Positions 17,312 to 24,682 of a DNA stretch of 35,939 nucleotides are shown here, in pieces. The stretch is from Deltaproteobacteria bacterium. GTDB lineage: Bacteria > UBA10199 > SBBF01. Both the position numbers and the translations under genes were made by a program. Where the stretch lies: positions 1 to 35,939 of the forward strand of contig JACPFC010000042.1 of NCBI GenBank assembly GCA_016183175.1, given 5' to 3'. Positions within the stretch are counted from its first letter, which is position 1; each line of letters starts with the position of its first letter. Below the pieces are notes generated by a model, which made no database searches, was not told the DNA's origin, and was given only the letters and a program-made list of their open reading frames with translations.

Positions 17312-20300
17312 CTATCTCGCTTTTGCCAATCCTTCCATCTTAGGTCTTTTGCTTTTTAGCCACTGATAAAACGTCGCCGGAGAGACGCCAAGCCTCCGGG
17401 CGGCAAGGTAAGGATGCTCCTCGCTTAAAGTAAAAGCGGCGTGGAAGACCTGATGTTTCAGCGTGTCCAAAAGGGTCCCCTCTCGATACCGAAAGGGAAT
17501 GGAGTCCAGCTCCCCCTTCCGCTGTCTGAAGCGTTCGCGCCGGAGGCGATTGTAGAGGGTCGCGATGCCGATGCCCAGCGACCGCGCCGCCCGCGACACG
17601 TCAAACCCTGTTTCCAAAAGCGACTTGGCAAAAATGATGTTTTCGATATCTCTCCACGTTTTTTGTTCCTGAAGAAATTTTTCGATGAATTGGACTGTTT
17701 CTGCGCCCCCCTCTTCCATCCCGTCCTTCGGACAAGGCGAACCCTCCTTTCCTTTTTTTCCGATCCCTTGCAACACCTGTTTGTCCCCTTCCGGGAGATT
17801 GCCCGGATCAAGAACTTTGCCGTCGGATAGGGCGCAGGCCACCCGCACCCGGTTGGCCAGTTCACGGACGTTGCCGGGCCAGTCATGCCCGACAAAAAGA
17901 CGCAGGAATTCTTTTGAAACGGAAGGGGCCTTTTTGCGGCCATGCTCTTTGGCAAACTCCCGTGCGAAGTGAGAGACCAACAGCGGAATATCCTCGCGGC
18001 GATCGCGGAGAGGCGGTAGAGCGAGTTCGACCTCGGCGATCCGGTAATACAAATCGTCCCGGAAGCGCCTTTCGGCCATCTCATGCCTCAAGTTCTTGTG
18101 CGTGGCCGAGACAATCCGGACATCGATGGGGATCGGTTTTGTATCTCCGAGCCTCAAGATTTCCCTCTCCTGCAAGGCCCGCAAAAGCTTGGCCTGAAGG
18201 GAAAAATCCAGCTCGCCGATTTCATCCAGAAAAAGGGTACCGCCGCCCGCCATTTCAAAAAGTCCCGGCTTGTCACGCATGGCGCCCGTAAAGGCCCCCG
18301 CCTTGTAACCGAACAGTTCCGATTCGATCAGAGGAACCGGAAGGGCGCCACAATTGATCGCCATAAAGGGCCGACCGGCCCGCGGGCTGTTTTTGTGAAG
18401 CGCCCGTGCCACCAGCTCCTTGCCGGTCCCCGACTCGCCCCGGATAAGCACCGAAAGATTCGTGCCCGTCACACGGTCCAAAAGGGCGAAGATTTTTTCC
18501 ATCGCCGGGCTTTGCGTGACCATCCCGGCGTACGAATAACGGGTCTCAAAACTTTTTTCGCGGAGAATGGTTTTATAGGTCTCGATGCTTTCCTCGGCTG
18601 TATTGAGGCGCCCGGCCAACCGCCGGTTCTGTTCCTCGATTTTCCGGTTCAGCCGGGCATTGTTGATGGCCAGCCCCGCCTGATCGGCAAAGACCCGCAT
18701 GACACCGGCGATCCGCTCATCGAAAAGCGCCGTCTGAAACCGGTGCGTCAGATAAAGAACGCCGATCACCTTGCCGCCGGCGCCAATCGGAAGACAAAAG
18801 ACCGATTTAAGCCCCAAAAGCAGAACCGAGCGGTAATTCTTGAAGGCCGGATCGGCGGAGGCGTTGTCGGAGCGGAGCGGCTTTCCGCTTTTCAACACTT
18901 CCTGCGCCGTTTTTCGGCTGATCTGTGAAAGGTCGTCATCCACATCGATATTGCGCGCCGATGCAACGGACAGTTCCCCCCTCTCGTCCGCCAGCAAAAC
19001 CAGTCCGCTCTCGGCATTCGAAAGGCTCAATGCATACTGCAAAACCAGATTCAAAAGGGTTTTCAAGTCGCGTTCGGTTCCCAGAAGGGAGTTGATCTGC
19101 AAAACGGCAAGGAGGGGATCAACCAACGGGCGAACACCCACGGGATGCGGTTGGATTTCCTGAATTTCCTTCTTTGGCTCCGGTGGCACCGGCCCTGCCG
19201 GCGCCGGCGCCAGGGGCACTGCCGACGCCGGCGGCGCCGCCGACGCCAGTGGCGCCGCCACCTCGAACCGGGAGAGGGTCGGATCGACCGGCGAGCGCTT
19301 TCGCAAAAATTCGAGGCGCGTCTTCTGTTCGTCGGTTTTGGCGTGATAGAGAAGGTCGGGATAGAGGCGCGCGAAGTCCTCGCCGCGGTTTTCGTCCAGC
19401 AAAAGAGAGGCCTGCGAGTTCAGCACCCAGAAGACAAACCCCTCCAGCCCCTTTTCATGCAGAACCAGCTGGGAGGCCTGTCCGAAAAATTCGCGGGCCT
19501 TGTCGAAATTTTTCCTCTGGCGTTCGATCTCCCCCAATTCGAGAATTGCCCGCGCCTTTAAATAACGGAGATGCGGGCTTGTCTCCTCCACCTGTTTGAG
19601 CAGTTGGAGCGAGAGGTTCAGGTTTTTTTCCGCCGCCCCGCTTTGCCCCAGCTCCTGTTGGATGACCCCCATGTTTTGCGCCACGGCCGAGGCGGCCCCC
19701 CAGTCTTTGAGGTACCGTGAGAGATCGAGCGCCCGCTGGTAATTGGAAAGGGAGCGATCGGTTTTTTTGAGAATATTGCAGGCATTCCCCAGTCCGTTGT
19801 AGGCCCGGAGCAGAAGGTCCCACTGCCTTTCTTCGCGCGCCCCGTCCGCCGCCGCCTCATAATGCCCGATGGCCTGGGAGGGATCGCCGCTCTTCAACAG
19901 ACATTCCCCCAGGTTGTAGCGGCACCGGTTTTTGAAGGAACGGTCGGAGAGTTTTTCATAGAAACCGAGCCTCGCCTTCAAAAATTCCGCCGCCTTCGCG
20001 TACTCCCCCTTCTGCATAAGCGCCATGGGGAGGTCGTTGTTGGTCACCCGGCGCTGTTCTTCCCCGTTCAAAAGCTTTTTCCACTCGCGTTCGGTCTTTT
20101 CAAATATCTCCACCGCCTTGTCGATTTGTCCCTCGCACATAAGGACAAAGGCGTGGTAATTCCGGATGCGAAGGGATAAAACAAGAGGGGGCGGATTCAA
20201 TTCCTCCAGAAGACCGAGCGCCACCTCCAGTTCTCTTTTGGCGCCGTCGAAATCCTCTTCGCGGATCGATTTCCACCCCTTTTTTTCCAGAAGGGCGATC

Positions 20301-22057
20301 CGCAGTTTGAGACGGTCGTCCCCCAGGGGGAGCCGCCCGATCAGATTTTCCACCTCGCGAAAAAGAGAAGGGATCGTCCCCCACGCCCCCTTGTCAAGGG
20401 GACCCTGCCCCGAGCGGGCGAGATGGAGTTTTTCATCGCAGATTTCGATGAGCAGTTCAGCCTTTTCGAGCGGCTTCTCGTCGCCGAGGCGCGAGGCCAA
20501 CTGCTCGCGCTCGGAGGGGGTCATTGGAAGGAGGGCATAGTCGAGGGCCGCCCCTTCGCGAAAGGGGGCGAGATTCCATTCGCCGTGAGGCCCCAAAAGT
20601 TTGCCGGCCCGGCAGAGAGCCCAAAGGAGAGAAACGGTCGTCCCCGCGTGCCCCTTTGTCTCCGCGTAGAGGGCAGACACGAAGATATCCGGGGGATTTT
20701 CGTCGCGGGTCGAAAGGACGATCAGCTCCCGCACATCGTCGCGAGTCATCGCCTCCAGGGTTGCCGATTCCGCCGGGATGGAATGTTCCACGGCCCATTG
20801 TCCGGCCTTTTCCGCTTCGCCGGGGAGAAGGGCGACAATCCCCCGCCAACCTCCTCCGGACAAGGCTTCAAGCCCCGCGGGATCGAAGCGATTCAGGTCG
20901 ATCAAAAAAATCGTCTCTGCGGGCATTCGCGCATCCGTCGAGGCGCAATCGGTCCGCACCGGAACCCCTTTGAGTTCCAGTTCGTAGCGGATTTCGTGTA
21001 TGAGCCGCGTTTTGCCGATCCCCGGTTCTCCATAAAGAAAAAGAAGCCCGGCCCCTTTTTTTGCTTCCACCCATCGGCGAATCGCCTCCAGCGTCTTTTG
21101 CCGGCCAACCCATTTTTCGGAAATGAGTATCGCCTGCGGCGCCGCCTCGCGGGGGAGCCCTTTTTCGGAATCGATTTCGGCCAAAACCTCGCCGGCGGTT
21201 CGATGCCGGTCGCTCGGATTTTTTTCCAGCAGTCTGACGAGAATCCGGTTTAACCAGGGGGGAATGGCGCGGTTCAGCGCCCCCGGCGCCGGCGGCGCCA
21301 CGGCGACCTGCGCCTTGAGCGTCTCCGAGGCCTTGTCGCGGGTGAAAGGATTGGTCCCCGTCAGACATTCAAAAAAGGTGACCCCAAGGGAATAGAGATC
21401 GGCCCTTTCGTCCACCGCCTCGTTCAACACCTTTTCGGGGGCGAAATAGGAGGGCGTTCCGGCAATCAGTTGAAATTTCGGATGGGCGATGCCGAGGTCG
21501 AGAATTTTGATTCGGGGCGTAGCCTTCGCCTTGTCGATCACGTAGATATTGGAGGGCTTGATGTCGCCATGCACCGCCCCCGCCCGGTGAATGGCCTCCA
21601 GCCCTTCGAGGCACTGGATGAGCAGGGCTTCCGCCAAGGCAACATTGAGGTCTTGCGAAGAAGTTGGCGGACTCCTGGGAGTTTCATCCGGGCCATTTGG
21701 CGGGCGCTGTGCCCGCCACGCATTATTGGAGGGGCCCTGCCGCCTGAGGAATTCATCGAGCGGCATGCCGTCAATCAGTTCTTCGGTAAAGTAGAGGGCT
21801 TCGATATCGCGGTCCCAGCCGAAATCGCCGATTCGCACCACCGCCGGATGGCTGATATCTTTTAAAAGAGAAAACTCAAACCGGAACGCCTCCACCCAGG
21901 CCTCCCCTTGTGCGCGCTGATACGGCTTTTTAAGAAGCTTGAGCGCCCAGGTTTCCCCTCCCCTTTTGACCCGATAGACCTTCGCGAAACTCCCTTCCGC
22001 CAAAAGGGCCTCAACAACGAACTGATGGTCGATTACTTTTGGATGTCTCTCTTCCAT
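17312..22057 (-). CDS. Giant Ser/Thr kinase - NTPase - TPR - GAF - sigma-54 AAA+ - HTH regulator
   Basis: The 1581-residue protein fuses a whole signalling cascade. Residues 11-295 are a Hanks-type kinase: glycine loop, Lys40, catalytic HGDIKPSN (HRD changed to HGD, Asp165), DLG at 187-189, APE at 206-208. Residues 315-520 form a STAND/ORC-like NTPase with Walker A GEPGIGKT (343-350). About 570-920 is a TPR array. 930-960 is a Pro/Ala linker. About 975-1135 is a GAF domain. 1175-1405 is the sigma-54 AAA+ domain with GESGTGKE, GAFTGA (1254-1259), Walker B LFLDE and an arginine-finger region. Two Fis-like HTHs follow (1470-1510 and 1530-1573). It should therefore open sigma-54 promoters in response to signals. 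A repeat-derived insert occupies kinase residues 109-136. A promoter TTGATA-N17-TATAAT lies 15 nt upstream. Confidence 0.93.
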   Translation of the reverse strand: MEERHPKVIDHQFVVEALLAEGSFAKVYRVKRGGETWALKLLKKPYQRAQGEAWVEAFRFEFSLLKDISHPAVVRIGDFGWDRDIEALYFTEELIDGMPLDEFLRRQGPSNNAWRAQRPPNGPDETPRSPPTSSQDLNVALAEALLIQCLEGLEAIHRAGAVHGDIKPSNIYVIDKAKATPRIKILDLGIAHPKFQLIAGTPSYFAPEKVLNEAVDERADLYSLGVTFFECLTGTNPFTRDKASETLKAQVAVAPPAPGALNRAIPPWLNRILVRLLEKNPSDRHRTAGEVLAEIDSEKGLPREAAPQAILISEKWVGRQKTLEAIRRWVEAKKGAGLLFLYGEPGIGKTRLIHEIRYELELKGVPVRTDCASTDARMPAETIFLIDLNRFDPAGLEALSGGGWRGIVALLPGEAEKAGQWAVEHSIPAESATLEAMTRDDVRELIVLSTRDENPPDIFVSALYAETKGHAGTTVSLLWALCRAGKLLGPHGEWNLAPFREGAALDYALLPMTPSEREQLASRLGDEKPLEKAELLIEICDEKLHLARSGQGPLDKGAWGTIPSLFREVENLIGRLPLGDDRLKLRIALLEKKGWKSIREEDFDGAKRELEVALGLLEELNPPPLVLSLRIRNYHAFVLMCEGQIDKAVEIFEKTEREWKKLLNGEEQRRVTNNDLPMALMQKGEYAKAAEFLKARLGFYEKLSDRSFKNRCRYNLGECLLKSGDPSQAIGHYEAAADGAREERQWDLLLRAYNGLGNACNILKKTDRSLSNYQRALDLSRYLKDWGAASAVAQNMGVIQQELGQSGAAEKNLNLSLQLLKQVEETSPHLRYLKARAILELGEIERQRKNFDKAREFFGQASQLVLHEKGLEGFVFWVLNSQASLLLDENRGEDFARLYPDLLYHAKTDEQKTRLEFLRKRSPVDPTLSRFEVAAPLASAAPPASAVPLAPAPAGPVPPEPKKEIQEIQPHPVGVRPLVDPLLAVLQINSLLGTERDLKTLLNLVLQYALSLSNAESGLVLLADERGELSVASARNIDVDDDLSQISRKTAQEVLKSGKPLRSDNASADPAFKNYRSVLLLGLKSVFCLPIGAGGKVIGVLYLTHRFQTALFDERIAGVMRVFADQAGLAINNARLNRKIEEQNRRLAGRLNTAEESIETYKTILREKSFETRYSYAGMVTQSPAMEKIFALLDRVTGTNLSVLIRGESGTGKELVARALHKNSPRAGRPFMAINCGALPVPLIESELFGYKAGAFTGAMRDKPGLFEMAGGGTLFLDEIGELDFSLQAKLLRALQEREILRLGDTKPIPIDVRIVSATHKNLRHEMAERRFRDDLYYRIAEVELALPPLRDRREDIPLLVSHFAREFAKEHGRKKAPSVSKEFLRLFVGHDWPGNVRELANRVRVACALSDGKVLDPGNLPEGDKQVLQGIGKKGKEGSPCPKDGMEEGGAETVQFIEKFLQEQKTWRDIENIIFAKSLLETGFDVSRAARSLGIGIATLYNRLRRERFRQRKGELDSIPFRYREGTLLDTLKHQVFHAAFTLSEEHPYLAARRLGVSPATFYQWLKSKRPKMEGLAKAR
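21652..21733. repeat. In-frame palindromic insert in the kinase domain
   Basis: The block contains GGCGGGC-GCTGT-GCCCGCC (21699-21717) and a second small palindrome ACTCCTGGGAGT. It encodes about 27 Pro/Ser/Asn-rich residues between RRQG and LNVALAEALL, where related kinases have a short loop. Confidence 0.65.
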
Positions 22058-22072
22058 AGGGAGAATCTACAA

Positions 22073-22101
22073 ATTATATATCTTTATATTTTTCATATCA
22101 A
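22073..22101 (-). promoter_or_regulatory. Sigma-70-type promoter of the giant regulator
   Basis: TTGATA (22101-22096), 17 bp, consensus TATAAT (22078-22073) on the minus strand. The start codon is 15 nt beyond the -10 box, leaving a leader of roughly 9 nt without a Shine-Dalgarno sequence. Confidence 0.65.
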
Positions 22102-22272
22102 ACGATTTATTTTTGGTATATTTTATATTTTTTATATTATATAACATATAGTTAATATTTTTTAGTCGTTTTTATTATAAACATATATTTTTATGAACAT
22201 CACTCAACGATTCCCCCTTGGTAAAACGGTAAAAGTTATGATTTTCAAGTAATTAAATAATTTTATGCATTG

Positions 22273-22288
22273 TGGCACACCTTTTGCT
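22273..22288 (+). promoter_or_regulatory. Sigma-54 (RpoN) promoter upstream of the lipoprotein genes
   Basis: TGGCAC-ACCTT-TTGCT matches the -24/-12 consensus TGGCACN5TTGCW exactly, with the invariant GG and GC ten bases apart. Transcription would start near 22299 and run into the lipoprotein genes. The neighbouring divergent gene encodes a sigma-54 activator. Confidence 0.85.
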
Positions 22289-22319
22289 GTTTCCTGTCTT
22301 CAGCAGATCTTTTAAATCA

Positions 22320-22406
22320 ATCAACCCTCCGCCCTCCTCTTTAAAAGAGGCGGCGTCCCGGACAAAAAGCGAGGAGGCTACCCGGAGGAGAGCGAGAGGG
22401 GTTGAT
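22320..22406. repeat. Palindromic element in the leader of the lipoprotein operon
   Basis: Outer arms ATCAACCC (22320-22327) and GGGGTTGAT (22398-22406) enclose smaller palindromes, including CCTCTTTAAAAGAGG. It lies just after the predicted sigma-54 start site. Confidence 0.6.
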
Positions 22407-22410
22407 CATT

Positions 22411-22541
22411 AAAGAAGGGGCTTTAATTAAAATCAGCCGTTCTTTGGAATAACATGGACCCCCGGTTGGATGAAGTCGCAAAAAACGATTTGGTCCTCCG
22501 GTAAAATTCCAGACGAACGGGGCTTTTAAAGCCCCTTCTTT
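22411..22541 (+). promoter_or_regulatory. 131-nt nested hairpin in the leader, possible attenuator
   Basis: AAAGAAGGGGCTTTAA (22411-22426) pairs perfectly with TTAAAGCCCCTTCTTT (22526-22541). Inside, CCGTTC (22437-22442) pairs with GAACGG (22515-22520), TGGAAT (22445-22450) with ATTCCA (22506-22511), and GGACC (22456-22460) with GGTCC (22492-22496). The 3' arm can instead form a local hairpin GGGGCTTTTAAAGCCCC followed by the T-rich TTCTTTGGTTTTCTTT. Terminator and antiterminator states are therefore conceivable. It could equally be an inserted palindromic element. Confidence 0.55.
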
Positions 22542-22617
22542 GGTTTTCTTTAATTGATTTGCGTTTGGGAGATGGGTGGATTAAATTATCAGGGGGTTAT
22601 CCCCAGAGGAGGTTTTT

Positions 22618-23379
22618 ATGAAAGCAACCGTAAAAGGGTTTTTTTCCGGTCTTTTTTTCTGCCTGACTATCTTTTTAGCGGCAATTCTCAACGCTTGCAG
22701 TTCCAGCGCCACGCCGTCCGCATCCATCCCGGCCCCGGTTTCCGGCCTTGCCTCCACATCGGCGGTCACCAGCAGTCTGACCAGTTCGCTCGGCTCTTTT
22801 ACGGGGGGCGCCCTGGTAAAGGCGCAGACGGATGACGGGGACATTGATTATTCCTGCGCCGTCAGCGAGGATTTTTCCACGGTCGAATGTGATTGTCCTC
22901 TGGGGGGCTATTATGCCTCTGCATATGACGACGCCTTTGCCCTTGGAGAAGATTGTGACGATGGTACGACCAGCGTTGTCTTCAGCAGTGTTTATGCCCA
23001 GGCCTTTTACGACTGCGCGGTGGAAAAATGCGGCGGAACCGTCACCCTCGATGGCCTTATCGGGGGAATCGTGGAAGGCTCGTTTGAGTGTGATGGAACC
23101 ATTGATATCACCGCCTCCCTTTTCACCATGGATGAGGAGGCCAACGAGCTGACCTGTTCGGGGATCACCGCCACGCCGGAAGAGGGAGACGCGGTCCACG
23201 TCGGCTTTAACGCCGACTTCACCTTCGACGGCGTCGATGAAAATTTCAGCGGAAGTTTTTGCACCGATCCCCCCGGGGAACCGGACGGCCTGATTGAATT
23301 CGACAGCTTTGATGAACTGGAAACGGAAGCCGATCCTGACGGAACCTGCGAGGCGGCCGAAGAAGACGATGAAGAGTAA
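22618..23379 (+). CDS. Lipoprotein of unknown function, sigma-54-driven
   Basis: The 253-residue product has a lipoprotein signal peptide with lipobox LNAC (hydrophobic stretch FFCLTIFLAAILNAC). A Ser/Thr/Pro-rich tether that includes ASIPAPVSGL follows. An acidic, cysteine-containing region comes next, with repeated short DG and EC/DC motifs (SCAVSEDFSTVECDCPLGG, VEKCGGTVTLDG, SFECDG). The C-terminus is very acidic (EAAEEDDEE). No known domain is recognised; the Cys-rich beta-type pattern suggests a disulphide-bonded surface domain. GGAGG lies 7 nt before the ATG. It is the first gene after the sigma-54 promoter and overlaps the next gene by 11 nt. Confidence 0.8.
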   Translation: MKATVKGFFSGLFFCLTIFLAAILNACSSSATPSASIPAPVSGLASTSAVTSSLTSSLGSFTGGALVKAQTDDGDIDYSCAVSEDFSTVECDCPLGGYYASAYDDAFALGEDCDDGTTSVVFSSVYAQAFYDCAVEKCGGTVTLDGLIGGIVEGSFECDGTIDITASLFTMDEEANELTCSGITATPEEGDAVHVGFNADFTFDGVDENFSGSFCTDPPGEPDGLIEFDSFDELETEADPDGTCEAAEEDDEE

Positions 23380-24682
23380 GCTGATCCTAGCCGCCCTCCT
23401 CGCCTTAACAGCCTCCTGCCACGGCGGGAGCGCCACTCCTCCCGCCTCCATTCCGGCCCCTGTATCGGGCCTCATTTCGATTTCAAGCCCAAATGCTGAA
23501 GGCCTTGTCCGAATCACCGGCACCCCCGGCGCCGTGGAAGACAACGCGGAAATTGAGGTGAATAACCGGACAACCGGCAACTCAGCAAGTACGGAGGCCG
23601 AATCCGACGGCTCGTTTGAAGCCGAAATTGCCGCCTCCATCGGGGACTCTCTTGAAATTCTCCAGACGGTTGACGGGGAAACCAGCAACGCAAGCACACA
23701 AGATGTGCCGGCCAATGCACCGGTGGTGGAAGAAACGCCCGTTGATGCCATTGTTCTGTCCAACCGGGACAAAGGCCTTGTCGGGACAACCGACGGCGCC
23801 AATTCGTTTCTCTATCTCTTTGATCTTTCCACCTTTGAAATGGTTTCCATCCTTGCGACTATCGAAAACTTCAATCTCACCGCCATCGACTACGACAACT
23901 CATCGACGGCAGGTTATCTTATCGACTATACCAACAGCCAGGCCGCCGTCCTGACCGCAGAGGGAGAATTGAAAGGGGGGAACGTCCTCTCCATCACAAA
24001 GCCCCTGGCAGTGGCCGTAATCGGCGGAGAGACTCTGGCCCTCGTCGGGCAGGAATCATCCGGCATTTCCCTGACGGTCATCGACAGTAGCGGTTCGACG
24101 CCGACTACCGGTTTGACCGCTCTTCTCCCCCATCCGGAGGGATCGGCGAATCACCGAGGAACATTTGCCTTAAGTTTTGATGAAACCGTTTCTTTAGGCG
24201 TCGTGGCCATGGCCGGCCTGTCCAAATTCTCCAATAACGATACGGTCCTTTCCTATGCCCTTTACGACGTCAACGCCGAAAACCTCACGCTTTCCTTCCA
24301 GGTTAATCTCGGCATCGGCGAATTTAGCGATGTGGCCCTCTTCTCGGACGGGGAGGAGGCGCTGGTGACCGATCCGGACAATGACACCATCATTCGTTTC
24401 AGCGGAACCGAGTTCGGCACCCGGGAAACCATTTCTGTCGGAGATCATCCGACGGCGGTTACGGTGGAAGAAGCGACGGGGTTTGCCTTTGCGGCCAACG
24501 TTGACGCCAACAGCATCACCGTGGTCGATCTGCAGGATAATTCCGTTTTCAACACCTTGACCACCGACGATGGGGTCGGTTCGGGCCCCATTGCCCTTTC
24601 GGTGGATGATGATCCCCTGGTGTTGATCATCGCCAACGAAGCCAGCCGTTCCATCTCACTGATCGAACTCACCCTTGAATAA
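23369..24682 (+). CDS. Lipoprotein with Ig-like/carboxypeptidase-regulatory-like domain and beta-propeller
   Basis: The 437-residue product has a lipoprotein signal (LLALTASC). The next 16 or so residues nearly match the tether of the preceding lipoprotein (SATPPASIPAPVSGL against SATPSASIPAPVSGL). Residues about 30-105 look like an Ig-like or carboxypeptidase-regulatory-like domain, with AEGLVRITGTPGAVEDNAEI and DGSFEAEIAASIGDSLEI. From about 120 onward repeated blades of the type FSDVALFSDGEEALVTDPDN and HPTAVTVEEATGFAFAANVD indicate a YVTN-type beta-propeller. It probably sits at the outer membrane or cell surface, perhaps working with its operon partner. The start overlaps the upstream stop, which implies coupling. 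Confidence 0.82.
   Translation: MKSKLILAALLALTASCHGGSATPPASIPAPVSGLISISSPNAEGLVRITGTPGAVEDNAEIEVNNRTTGNSASTEAESDGSFEAEIAASIGDSLEILQTVDGETSNASTQDVPANAPVVEETPVDAIVLSNRDKGLVGTTDGANSFLYLFDLSTFEMVSILATIENFNLTAIDYDNSSTAGYLIDYTNSQAAVLTAEGELKGGNVLSITKPLAVAVIGGETLALVGQESSGISLTVIDSSGSTPTTGLTALLPHPEGSANHRGTFALSFDETVSLGVVAMAGLSKFSNNDTVLSYALYDVNAENLTLSFQVNLGIGEFSDVALFSDGEEALVTDPDNDTIIRFSGTEFGTRETISVGDHPTAVTVEEATGFAFAANVDANSITVVDLQDNSVFNTLTTDDGVGSGPIALSVDDDPLVLIIANEASRSISLIELTLE

Follow-up and report, generated by a model that had tools for sequence, protein, structure and literature searches.

The stretch of DNA analysed here, 35,939 nucleotides long and referred to below as the window, contains the gene for a large multidomain sigma-54 activator and, divergent from it, two lipoprotein genes that follow a perfect sigma-54 promoter (Table 1). 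Sequence and recurrence together support the pairing of the activator with the lipoprotein genes: very probably, the activator drives both genes from this promoter by means of sigma-54, and does so as a trait of a wider family. Many relatives show this arrangement as well, and the loci therefore appear to form a real family of paired regulators and targets that has yet to be described.

Table 1. Features of the activator-lipoprotein locus (window positions unless residues are given)
Feature	Location	Strand	Remarks
Activator gene	17312-22057	-	1581 aa; ATG at 22057, divergent to TGGCACACCTTTTGCT
Ser/Thr kinase (Pkinase)	residues 15-285 of activator		Pfam match
AAA_16 (STAND-like ATPase)	residues 315-380 of activator
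TPR	activator, between AAA_16 and GAF in the domain list
GAF	residues 995-1131 of activator
Sigma-54 AAA+ (Sigma54_activat) with GAFTGA	residues 1180-1345 of activator
Lid	residues 1351-1423 of activator
Fis HTH (HTH_8)	residues 1469-1507 of activator
Second HTH	about residues 1552-1575 of activator
Sigma-70-like promoter for activator, TTGATA-17-TATAAT	22073-22101	-	sequence match, directly above the activator's ATG
AT-rich spacer, presumed enhancer/bending region	22058-22272	.	composition
Sigma-54 (-24/-12) promoter TGGCACACCTTTTGCT	22273-22288	+	start near 22299, placed by the usual spacing
Untranslated leader, 319 nt, strongly folded (predicted)	22299-22617	+	start predicted
Left arm of perfect 16-bp inverted repeat in leader	22411-22426	+
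Right arm of perfect 16-bp inverted repeat in leader	22526-22541	+	overlaps terminator-like stem 22519-22535
Lipoprotein gene 1	22618-23379	+	253 aa; Cys-rich family; IPAPVS tag after lipobox Cys
Lipoprotein gene 2	23369-24682	+	437 aa; tag, Ig-like domain and beta-propeller

The sigma-54 promoter

The site TGGCACACCTTTTGCT fits TGGCAC-N5-TTGCW, with 10 bases between its GG (22274-22275) and GC (22286-22287); the original prediction of a consensus match with GG-N10-GC spacing was therefore correct in both sequence and coordinates. It is the only zero-mismatch occurrence of TGGCACNNNNNTTGCW in the window. A single 16-base site might match the sigma-54 consensus by chance, but a dinucleotide-shuffled window is expected to contain only 0.027 exact matches and the site recurs in relatives, which makes this explanation highly improbable. 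Across the whole genome the exact pattern is found 30 times, and the same motif read backwards, as a control, is never found; rpoN is present in a single copy. The genes downstream of other exact sites include those for an ammonium transporter, a FliA-like sigma factor, an SctV-like type III secretion protein and several lipoproteins, and it is these gene types that make sigma-54 control look active in this genome. The distance from TGGCACACCTTTTGCT to the ATG of gene 1, 329 bases, is the largest gap among the 30 exact genome sites read. Exact sites at two loci, L027 and L105 (G000:C58 and C91; G000 is the window's genome), stand ahead of the SctV-like type III secretion gene and the FliA-like sigma factor. 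Those at L009, L021, L017 and L111 (G000:C2, C32, C17 and C125) lie ahead of genes for short proteins in which no signal peptide is evident, some of which start MSNEI; the two of these proteins that were tested have no NCBIfam match.

In the genome, 13 strong matches to the sigma-54 AAA+ domain (E no higher than 8e-67) stand against these 30 exact promoters, so activators and promoters are not matched one to one. The promoter might thus be real and yet be served mainly by another activator, with the divergent gene a mere neighbour that has other targets. This we regard as unlikely, given that, across the class, a single activator architecture is repeatedly found divergent to a single kind of target.

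The activator and the spacer

The N-terminal domain of the activator scores 112.7 bits against a Pfam cut-off of 31.7, as expected for a Hanks-type Ser/Thr kinase, and its catalytic motifs are intact (HGD, within HGDIKPSN; DLG; APE). The AAA+ domain has the Walker A motif GESGTGK and the loop YKAGAFTGA, which mark it as that of an enhancer-binding protein; a G[AS][FY]TGA loop is present in 28/28 activators with a tandem HTH. At the C terminus, HTH_8 is matched at 35.4 bits (cut-off 22). Both C-terminal HTH units are conserved across the family, the second being kept in 27 aligned C-termini. With its AAA+ domain bearing GAFTGA, its GAF sensor and its Fis-type HTH, the protein resembles NtrC/NifA-type enhancer-binding proteins; it is unlike them in its N-terminal Ser/Thr kinase, its STAND-like and TPR parts, its second C-terminal HTH and its length. 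Its best NCBIfam match is to NifA, at 365 bits, far under the cut-off of 528.85.

A dispersed repeat of ~96 bp (21655-21750) lies in frame inside the kinase coding region. It has 15 further genome matches at E up to 1, 12 of them with E below 0.001, and the activator ortholog in the related genome G002 is without the extra residues that the repeat encodes. A defence role for the locus was also considered and set aside, the PADLOC matches being to generic kinase or AAA domains.

The activator had been described as the divergent neighbor of the promoter across some 200 bp of AT-rich DNA, and this holds: its ATG is 215 bp away, and the GC content of the spacer is 0.20 versus 0.55 window-wide. Within the spacer, the activator has a sigma-70-like promoter of its own; a match of at least 11/12 arises in 7/500 shuffles of the spacer. 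The repeated operator sites for which a search had been proposed were not found, the repeats in 22040-22640 being short and AT-rich. A home-made motif search across 19 spacers (one near-duplicate dropped, each trimmed to its last 260 bases) likewise gave no clear common operator motif. The best motif of width 18, which looks like a reflection of AT content, scored 53.8, and four shuffled sets gave 40.9-45.5. Width 14 gave 36.8 versus 29.3-32.8 in shuffled sets, and a 20-base palindrome 32.4 versus 26.4-28.6, while a 16-base palindrome was not above its nulls.

The lipoproteins

The original prediction of two lipoprotein genes behind the promoter stood for the most part. Both genes, which overlap by 11 bases, are lipoprotein-like, and the lipobox of gene 2 (LTASC) is matched by a regular expression; in gene 1 the lipobox reads ILNAC, which differs from the strict form at position -2 and was not matched by the strict pattern. 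A Cys stands at the equivalent place in 7/8 aligned homologs of gene 1, the eighth (L060) being truncated by its contig. Gene 1 is a member of a small Cys-rich lipoprotein family and carries the tag PPxxIPAPVS, which is absent from the rest of the family members shown. The same tag is found on a third lipoprotein, on C49, and is common to otherwise different lipoproteins. Relatives of gene 2 have a PPxxIPAPVS-like tag behind the lipobox cysteine, followed by what we read, from the sequence pattern and the structure model and with no Pfam match behind it, as an Ig-like stretch.

An AlphaFold model of the gene 2 protein (pLDDT 82) predicts a small beta domain and then a beta-propeller; the model of the gene 1 protein is of low confidence (pLDDT 63). 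The best structural match of the predicted propeller is Escherichia coli YncE (3vgz; Z 30.5, rmsd 3.0, 292 aligned), and a Foldseek search with the gene 2 model places the leptospiral antigen Lp49 (PDB 3bws) third, with a TM score of 0.55-0.58. Identity in these matches is 11-16%, and propellers match many unrelated proteins. Lp49 itself is built from an Ig domain plus a propeller. In profile searches, gene 2 stayed under the cut-offs for Lactonase PF10282 (15.7; cut-off 21.7) and the YncE family (14.1; cut-off 400).

We built a lipoprotein profile, A1, from the neighbors of these activators together with the G002 ortholog of gene 2. Columns 114-134 of this profile (for example in L121, L124, L126 and L070) contain, in a loop of the Ig-like stretch of tagged lipoproteins, a hydrophobic segment that ends S/N/T-A-[YHF]-A; absent from the window's gene 2, it resembles a signal-peptidase site that lies within the mature chain.

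The predicted leader of the lipoprotein transcript

The predicted fold of 22299-22620 has an energy of -123.3 kcal/mol (z -4.6), equalled in 0/100 shuffles. Such a leader could act as a second control step or stop the transcript early. In that case the promoter might produce either a structured small RNA spanning 22299 to roughly 22555 or a leader subject to attenuation, with the lipoproteins expressed by read-through or from another promoter. The length and fold of the leader, its perfect 16-bp inverted repeat and the terminator-like stem ahead of T-rich DNA would all suit such a function, and none of the Rfam families matches the leader at or above its gathering score. However, the stem is at chance level (1 found vs 1.3 expected), the best sigma-70 site in 22289-22617 matches at only 9/12, and no second copy of the leader is found in 11 genomes (G000-G010). 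In addition, in most other modules the leader runs on for about 23-140 nt past the site, and in one for 278 nt, so that the structure of the window's leader, the longest read, is not a family trait. These points make a small RNA or attenuated leader unlikely as the main product.

Recurrence of the module

Comparisons covered 46 genomes of the window's class, whose sequences are related; two of the loci, L070 and L071, are near-duplicates. Lipoprotein profile A1 matches 22 of these genomes, some matches being partial (G001, G004, G007), and 23 have strong tandem-HTH matches (E below 1e-20). All 22 fall within this group of 23, in which only G005 has no profile match; in a further three genomes the tandem-HTH matches are all weak.

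A first set of modules was drawn from the best activator matches listed, not from all matches: 43 ORFs had a sigma-54 match, 28 of them with a tandem C-terminus, and dropping the 7/28 with <300 bp upstream left 21. A divergent site was counted when it scored at least 14, with hand-set scoring weights, within 800 bp. Among the matches listed, 14/21 modules have such a site, versus 0.92 in shuffles, while one of the 21 has a site in the opposite direction and reversed motifs give 1/21 and 0/21. The second set consists of ten loci picked by activator or lipoprotein matches and not by promoter, four of which have a partial activator only (kinase end or split frame); here the site is found in 6/10, versus 0.35 in shuffles and 1, 0 and 0 in the controls. 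Taken together, 20/31 modules have a strong divergent site, where 1.35 are expected (sd 1.11, maximum 5, 200 shuffles). The spacers between activator and site in these 20 modules are AT-rich (GC 0.08-0.42) and span 87-476 bp, with a median of 216. For activators without the tandem C-terminus, a divergent site is found in 7/13 and one in the opposite direction in 4/13.

The neighbors on the far side of the spacer are also of one kind. Seventeen of the 21 first-set activators, among the matches listed, face lipoprotein-like genes, and 14 of the 21 face one that is tagged, as judged by eye. In the second set, where adjacency partly guided selection, 9/10 face a lipoprotein or a lipoprotein-profile match. 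The first-set exceptions are in G007 (L116, G007:C22), where the activator faces an SctV-like type III secretion gene, and G004, where it faces large unknown proteins. The claimed regulator-target pairing is thus seen repeatedly. A strong site is absent in 11/31 modules, two of which (L124 and L149) have a weaker site, TGGACCCAAAACTGCA, in common. An orthologous module in G002 keeps its promoter. It corresponds to a second locus of the window's genome, on C50, where the activator is a paralog (43% identical over residues 981-1580) and TGGCACGCTTTGTGCA is the divergent site; of the three lipoprotein genes there, one is 32% identical to gene 2. The G002 ortholog of the first C50 lipoprotein (77% protein identity) retains the promoter as TGGCACGATTCCTGCT. 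For the window's own locus, where the proposed check was whether relatives keep the genes without the promoter, one G002 contig breaks off within the lipoprotein and another shortly ahead of the activator, so that the orthologous spacer falls in the gap. On C40, again in the window's genome, an activator is followed codirectionally by a tagged lipoprotein.

A candidate one-protein switch

We propose that the activator is a soluble protein that would sense a cytosolic signal via its kinase, STAND-like ATPase, TPR and GAF parts and be held on the AT-rich spacer by its two HTH units. Its AAA+ domain would then remodel sigma-54 RNA polymerase at the promoter, opening it, and a transcript starting near 22299 would carry both lipoprotein genes, whose products may lie at the cell surface. 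The activator gene itself would probably be read at a steady level from its sigma-70-like promoter. Several such pairs are present in this genome and across the class, with lipoprotein genes usually the first target.

Divergent sets of activator, promoter and target are of a known kind. To our knowledge, lipoprotein control by the Rrp2-RpoN-RpoS pathway of Borrelia does not involve a divergent local pair. In that pathway sigma-54 leads to lipoprotein expression, as in the window's proposed pair, but indirectly, through RpoS (PMC3037356, PMC3162934). A lipoprotein, QseG, is also tied to the sigma-54 activator pathway of QseE/QseF (PMC6075780). QseE/QseF is, however, a two-component system, whereas the window's locus is without a histidine kinase and its lipoprotein genes are apparent targets. 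Sigma-54 control of the bacterial exterior was argued earlier, in a passage of PMC3162934. Neither the activator architecture nor its lipoprotein pairing is described in the literature titles and abstract openings searched, or in the passages of PMC3162934 and PMC12316311 consulted.

A broader reading, which we offer tentatively and hold to be possible rather than probable, is that such activators constitute, in a class of largely unstudied bacteria, an undescribed set of one-protein switches that combine kinase, STAND, TPR, GAF, sigma-54 remodeller and two DNA-binding units, that every switch is firmly wired to a divergent lipoprotein operon of its own, and that PPxxIPAPVS is a signal shared by their outputs for sorting or anchoring. 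If this is true, then one genome could run several parallel surface programmes. The activator would also link eukaryote-like kinase signalling directly, within a single polypeptide, to the sigma-54-dependent expression of envelope proteins. Sequence usually gives little hint of what a sigma-54 activator controls; because regulator and target are found side by side again and again here, promoter, activator and output can be predicted class-wide and tested in a heterologous host. At L131-L133 (G043, G021 and G026), kinase-type activators that lack the tandem C-terminus form a second group. L131 and L132 have sigma-54 sites both ways and L133 has one toward the activator only, directions that hint at self-activation in this group.
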